A stretch of 59,553 bases of DNA, from the NCBI GenBank assembly GCA_021827145.1, contig JAKAXK010000003.1, positions 1 through 59,553 on the forward strand, written 5' to 3'. The position numbers were made by a program, and so were the translations under genes. Origin of the DNA: Pseudomonadota bacterium. GTDB lineage: Bacteria; Pseudomonadota; Gammaproteobacteria; Acidiferrobacterales; Acidiferrobacteraceae. Below the pieces are notes generated by a model. The model did no database searches. It was given only the letters and a program-made list of their open reading frames with translations, and was not told the DNA's origin. This document shows positions 4,247 to 59,553 of the stretch, piece by piece. The stretch's first letter is position 1; each line of letters opens with the position of its first letter.

Positions 4247-5209
4247 ATGGCACCGTCGCAGGCCGCAAAACGCGTACTTGTCGTCTATTACTCGCAAACA
4301 GGCCAGTTGACGCGGGCCGTTCAGTCCTTTGTCGCCCCCCTGCGGGACTGCCCGGATATCGAGGTTGTGGATGCGGTTATCGCCCCGCGCGCGCCCTATA
4401 GGTTTCCGTGGAGATTTCTAGATTTTTTGGATGTTTTTCCGGAATCGGTCTATTTGGATCCACCGGAGATTGCGCCGGTCAGCTTCGATCCGGACGAGCC
4501 CTTCGATCTGATTATTCTGGCCTACCAGGTCTGGTTTCTGTCACCCTCCCTGCCGATTACGGGTTTTTTGCATTCGGACGCCGCCCGTGTGCTTACGGGG
4601 CGGCCGGTCATCACCCTCGTCGCCTGCCGGAATATGTGGCTCACCGCCGGGGCGAAGGTGCTTGCGCTGCTCGAACGACACGGCGCACGGCTCATCGATA
4701 ATGTGGTGCTGGTCGACCGAGGCGCACCCTGGACTACCTTTGTCACGACCCCGCGCTGGCTTCTGACCGGGCGCAAAGACGCGTTTTGGAAGATCTTTCC
4801 CGCCGCTGGCGTGAGTGCCGCCGACATCAAGGGGGCGGCGCGATTTGGACGCGCCTTGCGCGCTGCGCTCCCATCCCTGCAGGGGGCGCCTACGCATAGT
4901 CTGCTGCGCGGCCTAGGTGCTGTGCGTGTCGACCCTCGCTACATCGCGAGTGAACGCGTAGGTCACCGGAGCTTTCTGCTTTGGGGCCGACTCCTGCGGC
5001 GCATCGGCCCCCCGGGTTCGCGTCCACGGCGGGCGGTTTTGGTGTTTTACGCCATTTTTCTCGCGACCATGATTCTGACCGTGTTACCTGTGACCCTGAC
5101 GGCGGCATGGCTACTGCGACCCTTTCTTTCAGGGCGTCTGCGCGCAGCGGCGCAGCGTCTCGAAGCCCCTTCTGGCAGCAATTGCGATCGTTGTGGTGAA
5201 TTTTTGTGA
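4247..5209 (+). CDS. darA: DarA-like dialkylresorcinol condensing enzyme (flavodoxin-like fold)
   Basis: A 320-residue protein starting with a flavodoxin-type strand and phosphate loop (VVYYSQTGQLT, residues 13-22), the N-terminus seen in the DarA family. DarA works with DarB to join and cyclise two acyl chains into dialkylresorcinols such as those in flexirubins and 2-hexyl-5-propylresorcinol. A hydrophobic segment at about residues 263-294 suggests membrane attachment near the C-terminus, and the tail ends in CDRCGEFL. The stop overlaps the GTG start of the DarB-like gene. It is the first gene after the candidate promoter. Family assignment rests on the N-terminal motif plus the adjacent DarB-like gene; the catalytic mechanism cannot be read from sequence. 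Confidence 0.72.
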   Translation: MAPSQAAKRVLVVYYSQTGQLTRAVQSFVAPLRDCPDIEVVDAVIAPRAPYRFPWRFLDFLDVFPESVYLDPPEIAPVSFDPDEPFDLIILAYQVWFLSPSLPITGFLHSDAARVLTGRPVITLVACRNMWLTAGAKVLALLERHGARLIDNVVLVDRGAPWTTFVTTPRWLLTGRKDAFWKIFPAAGVSAADIKGAARFGRALRAALPSLQGAPTHSLLRGLGAVRVDPRYIASERVGHRSFLLWGRLLRRIGPPGSRPRRAVLVFYAIFLATMILTVLPVTLTAAWLLRPFLSGRLRAAAQRLEAPSGSNCDRCGEFL

Positions 5210-6363
5210 AAGAATCTGTGTTGCGACCCGTTTTTATCACCGGTCTGGGCGTCTTTTTTCCGAATGCGCCCGTCGAAAACGATACCATGGAAGCAGTGCT
5301 CGGCATGGCCGGTGGCCTGCCGTCCCGTGCCCGCAGGCTGGTTCTGGCGAGAAACGGCATCAAGCGCCGCTTCTACGCCATCGATCCGCAGACCCGTGCG
5401 CTCACCCATAGCAATGCCGATATGGCGGCTGAGGCAGTGCGGCTCGCGCTTACGCGCGCCGATGTGCCTCTCGGGCACGTGAACTGTCTGGCCTGTGGTA
5501 CGAGCAGCCCGGATCAGTTGAAGCCCGGCCATGCGCATATGGTGCAGGGGGCGCTCGCAGCGCCTCCCATGGAGGTGAGCTCCATCGCGGGCGTCTGCAC
5601 GGCGGGTGCCACCGCCCTCAAGTACGCGTATATGGCGGTCGCAGGCGGGGTCGCGAACGTGGCCGTGAGTACGGGTTCGGAGCTCGCCTCAAGTTTCATG
5701 CGCGCCGAGAATTTCGACGCCGAGCCCGACGCCGAGACGCTCGAGCGGCGACCGGTGGTGGCTTTCGAGCAGGATTTTCTGCGCTGGATGTTGTCGGACG
5801 GTGCGGGCGCCGCCGTCTTACGGGCCGTGCCCGCGACCGCCGGCCCATCCTTGCGCGTCGATTGGATCGATTGCCTATCCTATGCAGGCGAGCTCCCCGT
5901 GTGCATGTACAGTGGCGCGCACAAAGACCCGGACGGGCGCATGCGCGGGTGGCGGGAGGTGTCCCCCGCCGAAGCGAGTCGCGATCGTTACTTTACCGTC
6001 AAACAGGACACGCGCCTGCTGGATCAGCATATTATCGATGCGGCCGTCACCCGCCCCTTGGCGGCAATTGCGTCGCGGCGCGGGCTGGCGGCGCGCGATG
6101 TGGACTGGTTTCTGCCCCACTATTCCTCCGAGTACTTTCGGCCGCTCTTGAGTAAGGCCCTGGAGGCCGTCGGTTTTCCCATCCCCTACGAGAAATGGTT
6201 CAGCAATATGCCGCAGAAAGGCAATGTCGGTTCGGCCATGATGTATGTGATGCTCGAGGAGCTCTTGTACGCGGGCGTCCTCCAAAAGGGTCAGCGCCTC
6301 CTCTGTCTCGTGCCGGAGAGCGCGCGCTTCGCGACCTGCTATGCCCACCTCACGGTCGTCTGA
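5206..6363 (+). CDS. darB: DarB-like 3-oxoacyl-ACP synthase III family enzyme
   Basis: This 385-residue enzyme has the thiolase-fold layout of the KAS III group with a complete Cys-His-Asn triad: Cys131 in AGVCTAGATAL, His305 in WFLPHYSSEY and Asn340 in QKGNVGSAM. The N-terminal segment (FFPNAPVENDTMEAVLG, then ARNGIKRRFYAID) matches the DarB branch rather than ordinary FabH. DarB proteins condense acyl thioesters to make the dialkylresorcinol head. The GTG start overlaps the stop of darA (GTGA), so the two are translationally coupled. Confident as a KAS III homologue, fairly confident as DarB. Confidence 0.83.
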   Translation: MKESVLRPVFITGLGVFFPNAPVENDTMEAVLGMAGGLPSRARRLVLARNGIKRRFYAIDPQTRALTHSNADMAAEAVRLALTRADVPLGHVNCLACGTSSPDQLKPGHAHMVQGALAAPPMEVSSIAGVCTAGATALKYAYMAVAGGVANVAVSTGSELASSFMRAENFDAEPDAETLERRPVVAFEQDFLRWMLSDGAGAAVLRAVPATAGPSLRVDWIDCLSYAGELPVCMYSGAHKDPDGRMRGWREVSPAEASRDRYFTVKQDTRLLDQHIIDAAVTRPLAAIASRRGLAARDVDWFLPHYSSEYFRPLLSKALEAVGFPIPYEKWFSNMPQKGNVGSAMMYVMLEELLYAGVLQKGQRLLCLVPESARFATCYAHLTVV

Positions 6364-54839: not shown

Positions 54840-55895
54840 TCAATCCCAGGATAGGCCGCCCCCGGTGCGGTACTCCGTTACGCGGGTCTCGAAGAAGTTC
54901 TTTTCCTTCTTCAGGTCCAGCATCTCGCTCATCCACGGGAAGGGGTTGGATATGCCCGGCTCGATCTCCGGTAGCCCAAGCTGCGCGCAACGACGGTTGG
55001 CGATATAGACGACGTACTGATGCATCTGGTGGGCGTTGAGCCCCAGCACCCCCCGCGGCATGGTGTCGGTGGCATAGGCGCACTCGAGGTCCACAGCGGT
55101 ACGCATGAGCGCGAGGATCTCAGCCTGAAAACCTGGGGTCCAGAGATCCGGGTTTTCGATCTTGATCTGGTTTGCGAGATCGATGCCAAAGTTGCAATGC
55201 ATGGATTCATCGCGCAGGATGTATTGATATTGTTCGGCGGCGCCCACCATCTTGTTTTGGCGTCCGAGGGCCAGGATCTGCGCGAAACCCACGTAGAAAA
55301 AAAGCCCCTCCATCATGGCGGCAAAGACGATGAGCGAACGGAGGAGGGCGGCGTCGGTTTCGGGTGTGCCCGTCTGAAACCTGGGCGCGGCCAACACCTC
55401 GATATGGGGAAGCAGAAAGGCGTCTTTGTCGCGGATCGACGGGATCTCGCGATAGGCATTGAAGACCTCGCCCTCGTCCAGCCCCAGGGATTCGACGATG
55501 TATTGGTAAGAGTGCGTGTGGATCGCCTCCTCGAAGGCCTGCCGGATAAGGTATTGCCGGCACTCCGGCGCGCGTATGTGCCGGTAGGTCCCAAGGACGA
55601 TATTGTTCGCGGCCAGCGAATCGGCGGTCGTGAAGAAGCCGAGATTGCGCTTGACGATGCGACGCTCATCCTCGGAAAGCCCATAGCGCTGCTTCCAGAG
55701 GGCGATATCGCGCTCCATGCTGATTTCCTGCGGCATCCAGTGATTGGCGCAGGCGTCCAGGTACTTCTGCCACGCCCACGGGTAACGATGGGGGCTCCCC
55801 GGTTCGGGTCGTTCCGGTGCGGTCAGGATGGTGTAGGGCGGTGCGCCCAGCGGGCCCTGAAGCGTGGTAACGGAAGGCAAGCTCATCGCGATCAT
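54840..55895 (-). CDS. nrdB: Ribonucleotide reductase beta subunit (class I)
   Basis: A 351-residue R2 protein that holds the di-iron tyrosyl-radical centre. Ligand and radical residues are visible: Asp92 in TADSLAANN, and Glu123, His126 and radical Tyr130 in [10 protein letters not shown]. Further ligands lie in [11 protein letters not shown] and RDESMHCNF. The C-terminal tail [18 protein letters not shown] is the alpha-subunit docking segment. GGGAG precedes ATG 55895. The partner nrdA is not adjacent within the window. It has a divergent relative in the fragment at 58324-58563. Confidence 0.94.
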
Positions 55896-57104: not shown

Positions 57105-57401
57105 CTGCGACGCGTTTCAGTAAGCGTGCGGCCCCAACGACCGGCCGGTTTCGACAAACATCCTGATCAAGGGGGGGCTTCTGGTGCCCCGCGTTCTCGG
57201 TACACGCTCGAGAAGCCACGTTCGCGGACGATCAGTGCGTATTGCGACTAGGGTTGCGGATTTTTGGGCCACCTGTCCGGCGTGGCTGTTTGCCGACGAA
57301 GTTCCCCTTGGGGCGTGTTGAGGGTTGCGCCCCGCGCGGCGATGAATTATCACACACCTCATCGCATCGCAGCTTCAAAAAACATGACACAGAGGTGTGG
57401 T

Positions 57402-57660
57402 GTGGCAAAAGACGACCCAAGGGCTGGCGTGCGCGTGGGTGCTCATGGACGGCCTGCCATTCCCGCGCCCTTACGTCGCGCCTTGAATCTGATGCCCGGA
57501 GAGCAGCTCGTGGCGCGCCAGGCGGGGGAGGGTCTCCTTCTGGAGCGTCGAGCGACGCCTTCAGGAGCGCTTCCGGTGTGTGCCAGCGGGCGTGAGCCTG
57601 GTCGAGGAACTGATAAGAGAGCGCAGGACCGAAGCGGCCCAGGAAGACGTCAAGGCATGA
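57402..57660 (+). pseudogene. vapB: VapB-type antitoxin gene, one frameshift
   Basis: The first frame gives an AbrB/SpoVT swapped-hairpin domain (VRVGAHGRPAIPAPLRRALN, then LMPGEQLVARQ), the second frame the toxin-binding tail (RLQERFRCVPAGVSLVEELI, RERRTEAAQEDVKA). The change falls near 57545-57550. A GTG at 57402 with AGAGG upstream is the likely start. The TGA overlaps the vapC ATG (ATGA), so the original coupling is still visible. Either the antitoxin has lost its tail or a base error is present. Confidence 0.75.
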
Positions 57661-58010
57661 AGCATGTCCTGGAGGCCTCGGCGTTGCTCGTGTTTCTGAA
57701 CGGGGAGCCCGGGGCCCATGTCGTGCGCCCGCTTCTGGATGGGGCAGGCGTCTCCGCTGTGAACTGGGCGGAGATCTTACAAAAGGCTCTGCATCGGAAC
57801 GTCGACGTGGACCGTATGGCGGCGGACTTGGCGGATATGGGCACAACTATACTGCCATTTACGGAAGAGCATGCCGATGTCGCCGCGCGGCTTTGGTTCG
57901 ACATCCGGCCCAAGGGCCTATCGTTGGCCGACCGCGCATGCTTGGCGCTTGCGGCCGCCCACGCGGTTCCTGTTTGGACCGCCGATAGGGTCTGGGGGCG
58001 CTTTCCATAG
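57657..58010 (+). CDS. vapC: VapC-type PIN-domain toxin
   Basis: A 117-residue PIN ribonuclease. Acidic metal ligands are Glu39 (NWAEIL), Asp92 (LSLADRACLALA) and Asp110 (VWTADRVW). The first ligand, normally Asp in VLDAS, is Glu6 here (VLEAS), which may weaken activity. It overlaps the damaged vapB by 4 bases. Toxin without a complete antitoxin would be lethal if fully active, so the Glu6 change and the vapB shift may be linked. Confidence 0.85.
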   Translation: MKHVLEASALLVFLNGEPGAHVVRPLLDGAGVSAVNWAEILQKALHRNVDVDRMAADLADMGTTILPFTEEHADVAARLWFDIRPKGLSLADRACLALAAAHAVPVWTADRVWGRFP

Positions 58011-58323: not shown

Positions 58324-58563
58324 TCACTCCCAGGACAGCGCTCCACCGGTCTGGTATTCGGTCACGCGCGTCTCGAAGAAGTTCTTTTCCTTCTTCAGAT
58401 CGAGGACCTCGCTCATCCACGGGAACGGATTAGTCGCACCCGCGTACTGGACGGGCAGCCCGATCTGCTGGCAACGCCTGTTCGCGATGAACTTCAGGTA
58501 GTCATCGAACATCGCGGCGTTGAGCCTGAGCACACCGCGCGGCACGGCATCGACCGCGTAGCG
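58324..58563 (-). pseudogene. 3' fragment of a second nrdB gene
   Basis: The minus-strand frame reads YAVDAVPRGVLRLNAAMFDD, then [32 protein letters not shown] and ETRVTEYQTGGALSWE to a stop at 58324. This is the last 76 or so residues of a ribonucleotide reductase beta subunit. It is clearly related to nrdB at 54840 but differs at many residues, so it comes from a separate gene. A stop codon lies just upstream (near 58566) and the metal-binding part is absent. Confidence 0.85.
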
Positions 58564-58679
58564 CTAGAGCAGTTTGGGCATGCGCAGATGTACCGGACGC
58601 GAGTCCTTTGGGGGGCTTTATGAGGCGTCCATGACAGGGCGTTGAGTAGGGTAGGACACGTCGTGGCGTGCACCAAACC

Positions 58680-58759
58680 GGAAAAAACTCCCATAATCGC
58701 GTGGCAAAAAGGGAAAACAGCCCCATAATAAGGCCGTGGACCCGGGAAAAAGTCCCATA
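58680..58759. promoter_or_regulatory. Three direct repeats upstream of the Fic-like gene
   Basis: Copies at 58680-58695, 58711-58727 and 58744-58759 share the form GGGAAAA, a few bases, CCCATA (for example GGGAAAAAGTCCCATA). They are spaced 31-33 bases apart, close to three helical turns, so a protein could bind them on one face of the DNA. They end 15 bases before the ATG and suggest autoregulation by the AbiEi-like N-terminal domain. Confidence 0.6.
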
Positions 58760-58773
58760 CGGGGGGTGTTGTC

Positions 58774-59553
58774 ATGTTGGTATTCCGGAATGAAACCAAC
58801 CGCAAGATGCTCGAGAATCACGAAAAAGCGGGACGCCTGCGGCGACTCTCGAACGGCATTTACTCATCGGACCTGGAGACGGATCCGGCGGTCCAGATCC
58901 GTCAGAATGTGGTCCGGGTGTTAGCCTATCTGCGCCCTGGCGCTGTGATTTCCCACCGCAGCGCGATTCTCCCCGATTTTGGGGCTTCCGAGGGCCTGGT
59001 AGTCGTTACAGACTCCGCCCTCTCCGAGAATTATATCCATAACGTGCCTGGCTTGGTGGTTGTTGCGACGCCCGGACCTGCTCCCCTCGCCAGCGATGCG
59101 GATCTGGGCGGCATTTATACTGCGTCCCCGTGGCGGGCTGTTCTGGAAAATCTGGAACCGCGTCGAGTCATTCGGGCCATTGGCCGGTCAAAGCAGGCGG
59201 ATCTCGCTGCCATCGAGGCTTTTCTGGCGCGCAATTCCGCCACCCAAGCAGTGGCAGACGGTTTCCTACAAGGGGTGGGGCTTGTCGTTGCCGCCGCCGG
59301 GAAATGGACCCGTGAACAGCAGTCCGTTACACGTCTCATGCAGAAAAAGCGTGCCGAGGTGGCGCGTCAGCCACTCTTCCTGTCGCCTTTGATCGATCAC
59401 GAACGGGTGGTGCTGTTCGAGGGTTTGGCACAGCAATTGCGCCGCGGCATTCATGGCAACGAAACCCTCTGGGGTGACGGATTGCCCAACTTTCCGGCGC
59501 GCCCTGTGATAGGGGACAATCGTTTTTTCAATCTTGCTTTTTATGAGTCGTAT
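58774..59553 (+). CDS. Fic-family protein with AbiEi-like N-terminal domain (partial)
   Basis: The first 260 codons of a gene that continues past the window end. Residues 1-65 (RLRRLSNGIYSSDLETDPAV, then YLRPGAVISHRSAI) match the winged-helix antitoxin fold of AbiEi-type regulators. Residues near 245-260 (DNRFFNLAFYESY) look like the start of a Fic N-terminal segment, which normally continues with an IEG motif. Fic enzymes transfer AMP to proteins. A G-rich sequence lies before the ATG. Calling it Fic rests on a short stretch, so the second half is tentative. Confidence 0.6.
   Translation, partial: MLVFRNETNRKMLENHEKAGRLRRLSNGIYSSDLETDPAVQIRQNVVRVLAYLRPGAVISHRSAILPDFGASEGLVVVTDSALSENYIHNVPGLVVVATPGPAPLASDADLGGIYTASPWRAVLENLEPRRVIRAIGRSKQADLAAIEAFLARNSATQAVADGFLQGVGLVVAAAGKWTREQQSVTRLMQKKRAEVARQPLFLSPLIDHERVVLFEGLAQQLRRGIHGNETLWGDGLPNFPARPVIGDNRFFNLAFYESY

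Follow-up and report, generated by a model that had tools for sequence, protein, structure and literature searches.

Helix-phased direct repeats ahead of genes that appear to join a distant AbiEi-like region to a Fic enzyme

The stretch of DNA analyzed here (the window; 59,553 nucleotides) is the whole of contig C85 of its genome, the assembly of which comprises 2.8 Mb in 221 contigs. Its last ORF is the first part of a gene that appears to fuse an AbiEi-like N-terminal region to a Fic enzyme, and the contig ends just ahead of the expected inhibitory and Fic motifs. Upstream of this ORF lie three related sites in the same orientation, accompanied by two CATAAT hexamers (Table 1). An earlier note on this sequence had described a triple GGGAAAA-CCCATA site at a spacing of 31-33 bases; we found such a trio, with the form GGRAAAA..CCCATA, and both intervals are 32 bp. 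The ATG at 58774 is located 31 bases past the start of the third copy (58743).

Table 1. Positions of the fusion gene, its candidate operator copies and neighboring features in the window
Feature	Position	Strand	Remark
AbiEi-like/Fic fusion gene	58774..59553	+	first 260 of about 492 residues (length taken from L009)
AbiEi-like N-terminal region, residues 1-129	58774..59160	+	
Candidate operator copy O1, 20-bp family register	58673..58692	+	core CGGAAAAAACTCCCATA, 58679-58695
Candidate operator copy O2, 20-bp family register	58705..58724	+	core GGGAAAACAGCCCCATA, 58711-58727
Candidate operator copy O3, 20-bp family register	58737..58756	+	core CGGGAAAAAGTCCCATA, 58743-58759
CATAAT, -10-like hexamer	58724..58729	+	first base is the last base of O2; putative promoter element
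Second CATAAT, after O1	58692-58697	+	
Ribonucleotide reductase small chain, C-terminal fragment	58327-58545	-	73 codons
Ribonucleotide reductase small chain, full-length-looking	54843-55895	-	about 2.4 kb from the fragment; 72% DNA identity over 224 bp
Intergenic stretch with copies elsewhere in the genome	58162-58328		
ORF with a PIN domain in its second half	57264-58010	+	PIN, E 3.3e-10

Just upstream of the fusion gene is a fragment encoding the C-terminal end of a ribonucleotide reductase small chain, and a full-length-looking gene for such a chain lies farther away on the same strand. The intergenic stretch listed in Table 1 has an 88% identical copy on contig C126 and a 91% identical 90-bp piece on C177, with short pieces also on C137, C158 and C30 of the same genome, and is perhaps a small repeat element. 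The frame of the PIN-domain ORF looks AbrB-like by eye ahead of the PIN domain, with no profile match there, and possibly represents a VapBC pair.

The array in front of the fusion gene is not a chance arrangement. A degenerate pattern built from the three sites had no other match in the 59.5-kb window with up to two mismatches, and three matches were reached in none of 100 shuffles (mean, 0.30). The three-copy ladder score of the window was 34, a value that dinucleotide shuffling of the promoter region did not reach in 4000 trials (maximum, 32), and the array ranked first among 1485 sliding windows on the + strand, where the runner-up array scored 31. A general repeat finder run on the window did not list the three sites, because the copies differ from one another. 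In the whole genome, the pattern was matched six times with at most one mismatch, two of these matches being in the Fic locus; the four located elsewhere, as compared with two for the reversed pattern, make a small regulon conceivable.

A full gene closely related to that of the window was found in a Proteobacteria MAG (locus L009, JAJYHM010000009.1). It encodes 492 residues, 92% identical to the window's product over the shared part, and comparison of the two genes (DNA identity, 92.4%; dN/dS, 0.17) showed that the window's copy is under purifying selection. The L009 protein matches Pfam Fic (E 6.3e-12), contains the Fic motif HPFLDGNGR and has SNYIEG, an S/TxxxEG class II inhibitory motif, right past the point at which the window ends. 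The Fic core HPFxxGNGR that the earlier note expected is therefore present in this relative, while the window's own Fic part lies beyond the contig end. An AlphaFold2 model of the L009 protein (mean pLDDT, 69; 63 in an earlier model) matched FICD (4u0u_A) with a Z of 23.8 and an rmsd of 2.6 over 232 residues, and FicTA and VbhTA chains were among the other matches of the fold search, in which Fic chains took up the matches and the N-terminal domain was hardly sampled. The active-site motif HPFx[DE]GN[GK]R was found in 37 of the 38 full-length members (the exception being L135), and the inhibitory pattern [ST]xxxE[GN]T, located N-terminal to the Fic core in the same chain, likewise in 37 of 38 (the exception being L036). 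Thus, the motif of the Fic/Fido AMP-transferases was seen in the relatives only and the Fic fold in L009, and the relatives carry in the same chain the inhibitory [S/T]xxxE[G/N] helix of class II Fic proteins. A search of the window's own assembly with the full protein returned the window locus and one weak match to another Fic stretch (31%, E 6.8e-4).

The trio of candidate operator copies is kept in all three orthologues, with substitutions at several positions that include the closing ATA. In the same-genus genome G008, the orthologue is split into three ORFs and its Fic motif reads RPFLDGNGR; the same genome has a 57% identical paralogue, the frame of which runs into a gene that we take to be transposase-like. 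The broken G008 orthologue, together with the conservation of the active-site and inhibitory motifs in the family, would suit a protein that is a whole toxin-antitoxin system in itself, the Fic part halting growth of the host if repression and self-inhibition both fail. However, any unused gene would look decayed likewise, and for many class II Fic proteins no harm to the host is known. A protein of the required kind is CccR of Yersinia pseudotuberculosis, which has a Fic domain and a C-terminal HTH; its Fic activity arrests E. coli, and by binding close to -35 and -10 the protein represses the promoter of its own gene (PMC9755527). We regard a toxin-antitoxin system in one protein as possible, though somewhat less than probable. 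As a hypothesis, the single-gene toxin-antitoxin design put forward in the earlier note would more likely place the antitoxin-like role in the SNYIEG motif than in the AbiEi-like domain.

The window's own 260 residues had no family match in Pfam. When a 42-sequence alignment of the N-terminal region was compared with PADLOC families, 20 of the 22 families matched were AbiEi (best E 2.9e-7), and the most frequent family was matched by 13 of the 42 members. Alignment with hhalign against two sets of six AbiEi-profile-matching proteins gave 90% over 123 columns and 39% over 54 columns, as compared with 0.1% and 0.7% for reversed controls. The L009 protein stayed below the curated cut-offs, scoring 13.9 bits for AbiEi_4 (cut-off, 25) and 18 bits for NCBIfam TAA_AbiEi (cut-off, 150), and AbiEi_4 was matched at E<=1 by 6 of the 42 members (best E 1.1e-4). 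When the N-terminal alignment was used as a profile against the PDB, no AbiEi appeared, and seven coiled-coil matches with E values of 0.23-1 were obtained; the two matches at E<=0.001 in a viral library were a Fic protein and a shrimp-virus protein. The N-terminal alignment (A3) was made without L049 and L139. In the L009 model, the N-terminus is predicted to form a helix at residues 7-18, strands at 23-26 and 29-31, and helices at 38-44 and 46-53, with pLDDT values of 70-85 in blocks of the first 60 residues. The matches to AbiEi profiles start late, suggesting that the winged helix may be shortened in its N-terminal half. These data are consistent with the antitoxin-like N-terminus proposed in the earlier note, in the sense of a distant relative of AbiEi that shows remote homology and falls outside the curated AbiEi family. 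A genuine AbiEi antitoxin gene (AbiEi_3_N, E 1.3e-31) is encoded at 5120-5539 (+) of the L009 contig; its start lies some 0.75 kb downstream of the fusion gene, and the contig ends before the gene does.

The arrangement of repeats was then compared among homologous loci. A total of 47 upstream regions were extracted, and removal of L041 (24 bp upstream only) and eight DNA-redundant regions left 38; start codons were assigned by script, and self-similar words were sought with no sequence presumed. The spectrum of direct-repeat spacings over the 38 loci peaked at 31 bp (Z 12.3), 41 bp (Z 6.8) and 72 bp (Z 6.1), with further peaks at 73 bp (Z 5.8), 32 bp (Z 4.8) and 61-62 bp (Z 3.5 and 3.3), all close to multiples of 10.3 bp. 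Individually, 19 of the 38 loci showed z>2.5 at 30-32 bp (16 with other shuffles), as compared with 1 of 68 neighbor ORFs, none of 37 window ORFs, 1 of 36 stretches farther upstream and none of 38 stretches inside the gene, the last two controls being taken from the same loci. Spacings of 31 or 41 bp gave Z values from -1.8 to 0.8 throughout these controls. The inside-gene stretches (+100 to +263) of the family loci gave separate peaks at 51 bp (Z 4.7) and 72 bp (Z 3.0), both multiples of 3.

We found a three-copy ladder of words in the same direction, with steps of three or four helical turns, at p<=0.05 in 31 of the 38 loci, Pseudomonadota and Bacteroidota being among their hosts. The steps were often 31 and then 41-42 bp, and ladders shifted by half a turn passed in only 3 of the 38 loci. 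The ladder test, in which a revised start of L025 replaced the earlier one used for the spacing spectrum, was not significant in seven loci (L027, L036, L127, L131, L132, L139 and L025, the nearest paralogue of the window's gene). The earlier note would have taken a lack of conservation of the repeats in front of homologues as a refutation; the arrangement is conserved in most loci, L025 being without a significant ladder, and the sequence of the words is not. The 38 loci are not independent, 17 of them falling into one group at 50% N-terminal identity; at this level the 36 aligned loci form 16 groups, 14 of which contain a ladder locus. All six later-found loci had ladders with steps of 31 and then 41 or 42 bp (p 0.003-0.017). 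They were drawn from 25 loci of a pattern scan, the other 19 being on the same contigs, near-identical, devoid of the N-terminus or without a family match. Among the six, L169 (49% to its best relative) is the one clearly independent locus; L164, L167 and L168 have a 12-mer overlap of 0.41-0.78 with earlier loci, and the N-terminal protein sequences of L165 and L171 are 75% and 83% identical to those of L042 and L044, with neighbor ORFs in common. One of the longest arrays lies upstream of the start codon of the homologue L050, with four exact copies of TTAACAAAAGTTTGCA and one variant.

Phased A-tracts bend DNA, and runs of A occur in many of the copies, so that the ladder might be read as curved promoter DNA with no specific binding protein. 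With A or T runs of at least 3 masked, the 31-bp peak kept a Z of 7.7 (41 bp, 5.0), and with A/T runs of at least 4 masked, a Z of 4.1 (41 loci in both cases), although the 41-bp peak dropped to Z 1.9 under the stricter mask. Curvature as the sole cause is weakened by these results. In addition, the ends of the motif outside the A-run are conserved, and A-runs are absent from loci such as L137, whose word is GCTGGAGTTCGC. We consider this explanation highly improbable.

When the 31 ladder loci were aligned with one shift per locus, leaving out the seven loci named above, an asymmetric 20-bp motif, CTTAAwnnnCnAAAAnTYnC, was obtained. Its information content was 8.06 bits, in comparison with 3.50-3.78 bits in eight permuted controls (12 starts each for the real data and the controls). 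The commonest copy starts relative to the start codon were -77, -46 and -4 (10, 9 and 8 copies exactly). In 15 of the 31 loci a copy, starting at -6 to -2, extends across the start codon, which would place part of the operator in the first codons of the gene. The window has a variant of the commonest family layout, with copies at -101, -69 and -37 (32 and 32 bp) and none across its start codon. Eighteen loci have a copy at -48 to -43, and in 8 of them (44%) a -10-like hexamer (at least 5 of 6 positions) came directly after it, as compared with 4% at control offsets. The window is outside these 18 loci; it scores 4 of 6, as its CATAAT starts one base before the tested range. Palindromy within the copies was 8.24, near the level of shuffled copies (7.88), and the inverted-repeat spectrum reached a maximum Z of 3.4, in contrast to 12.3 for direct repeats. 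A palindromic or inverted operator was rejected on these grounds, and the inverted repeats of AbiE-type operators were not found.

Similarity of the operators was correlated with how alike the proteins are in their N-terminal DNA-binding segment (Mantel r, 0.34; p 0.003; partial r, 0.25) and, to a lesser extent, with identity of the linker (Mantel r 0.24, p 0.036; partial r 0.01), in 30 loci (L049 being outside the alignment) that share ancestry; the partial correlations carry no p-value. The words thus track the N-terminal segment more than the linker, which points to the gene's own product as their likely reader, with a weight limited by the shared ancestry. The repeats might instead be operators of another regulator, given that binding by the own product is a prediction from sequence. 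Against this, the arrangement travels with the protein family across hosts and gene neighborhoods, and the words co-vary with the N-terminal segment of the protein, an observation that supports its role as reader, short of proof in view of common descent. A foreign regulator seems to us quite improbable.

Plasmids from Alpha-, Beta- and Gammaproteobacteria and from Bacteroidota were found to carry homologues that share the domain make-up, usually annotated there as 'Fic family protein'. Among prokaryote genomes, homologues at E<=1e-30 were detected in at least 8 of 368 other genomes in the window's class, at least 14 of 385 in the class of genome G416 and at least 4 of 397 other genomes of the phylum, all being lower bounds, as 3-5 candidates were scored per genome. 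Full-length members are present in viral-contig collections (IMG/VR), and relatives may therefore be carried by viruses or prophages; in the phage record collection, one record matched, in the Fic core only. No flanking ORF within 1.5 kb was common to more than 2 of 41 loci, some of whose flanks end at contig ends, and no recurring partner gene was thus seen within this distance. AbiEii was annotated in none of six annotated plasmid loci, as judged by annotation in incomplete tables rather than by profile search, and the adjacent AbiEii nucleotidyltransferase toxin of a type IV AbiE system was not found. Seven plasmid stretches, one of them lacking annotation, contained no annotated secretion gene.

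The toxin-antitoxin pairs FicT/FicA, VbhT/VbhA and Doc/Phd have the Fic core and the inhibitory-glutamate principle in common with the present family, the inhibition coming from a separate antitoxin. Unlike these pairs, the present family has the inhibitory motif in the same chain and no recurring neighbor gene. Partner antitoxins of Fic/Doc proteins are listed in PMC2701414, from which the term 'AbiE' is absent. In type IV AbiE systems, which have a distantly related winged-helix region, AbiEi monomers repress their own promoter from single sites, two or four per promoter; the 23-bp sites form inverted pairs 3 bp apart in AbiEi and 13 bp apart in Rv2827c (PMC7319586). There, AbiEi and the toxin AbiEii are encoded by two paired genes, whereas the domain is here fused to Fic and the sites are direct. 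CccR resembles the present family in joining Fic and a DNA-binding domain in one protein; it is described as type VI-secreted and as binding, in the form of a dimer, one inverted pair of 10-bp boxes 26 bp apart (PMC9755527). The family differs from it in the N-terminal position and AbiEi-like nature of the domain and in direct, non-palindromic copies at 31 or 41 bp. The position of the copies would be right for autorepression of the CccR type. CbFic2 of Coxiella burnetii is likewise a class II Fic protein with a DNA-binding domain (DUF4172-Fic-HTH, inhibitory TSAIEG), and it differs in the order of its domains and in the kind of domain that contacts DNA; no operator array is mentioned in the accessible part of its report (PMC10628234). 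In the literature searched, which did not extend to preprints and most subscription papers, we found neither an AbiEi-Fic fusion nor a phased direct-repeat operator of a Fic gene. Precedents for autorepression thus exist in a Fic-HTH protein (CccR) and in AbiEi, and the fusion and the helix-phased direct ladder with changing words are the parts for which no print precedent was found.

Taken together, we consider it probable that the family consists of stand-alone, self-inhibited Fic enzymes that repress their own genes from phased, head-to-tail sites; the presence of the direct, phased arrangement before most relatives in different bacteria makes autorepression probable. The product would be a class II Fic AMP-transferase, the AbiEi-like N-terminal domain of which may bind asymmetric sites of about 20 bp in its own promoter. 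Monomers would align head to tail along a single face of the helix, 31-32 bp (three turns) or 41-42 bp (four turns) apart, and the array would cover the core promoter, in about half of the ladder loci also the start codon, and thereby repress the gene. The S/TxxxEG helix of the same chain would keep the Fic part off, and repression would presumably lift when the protein is depleted or titrated.

An alternative hypothesis is that the DNA-bound state mainly controls the enzyme rather than transcription, with phased sites in the own promoter or in incoming DNA switching the Fic activity. In CbFic2, DNA binding alters AMPylation and deAMPylation (PMC10628234), and phased sites in one direction would fit the need of a head-to-tail protein array. 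On the other hand, a repressor would require copies at just such places, at the probable core promoter and over the start codon, the latter being covered in 15 of 31 loci. We consider this alternative unlikely as the main function, and it is compatible with autorepression. A more far-reaching version, to which we assign an equally low probability, would be a widespread family of one-gene systems: AbiEi-like/Fic proteins would form a head-to-tail polymer along the three-step ladder, whose sites reach from the upstream side of the promoter as far as the start codon, and this one DNA-bound array would at once shut down the gene and control the activity of its enzyme. Were the replicon lost or invaded, such an array would fall apart and set the Fic enzyme free.

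On the preferred reading, autorepression by a self-inhibited Fic enzyme, the near-fixed geometry of the ladder and its changing words would give this stand-alone Fic family an operator code that can be tested, from which protein-DNA recognition might be legible in genomes alone. The AbiEi and Fic worlds of toxin-antitoxin systems would be joined in one chain, and the family may offer a clean system for studying how arrays of phased direct sites are read.

Repeats at 31 bp were also seen in front of some other Fic genes. In a control set of 54 such genes (from the 69 loci L052-L120, near-identical ones having been removed by hand), 11 showed z>2.5 at 30-32 bp (10 with other shuffles), with a combined Z of 3.5; the Z values at 41, 62 and 72 bp were -0.3, 0.4 and -0.7. 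The geometry is therefore not unique to the AbiEi-like/Fic family, and phasing at 31 bp may extend to Fic genes more widely; what sets the family apart is its longer ladder, built from asymmetric copies in direct orientation. Palindrome-like words 31 bp apart precede Fic ORFs of 385-422 aa at L094, L104, L096, L109, L112 and L113, the clearest pair being that of L104, GGAACGCCGACGTTCC. We presume that the Fic proteins of these six loci are of the DUF4172-Fic-HTH kind. Phased operators may thus be common to Fic proteins with DNA-binding domains, and if this were general, the arrangement would be a rule rather than a curiosity. At L088, four direct words containing AAAAAGTG were found before a Fic ORF of 489 aa with a different N-terminus.
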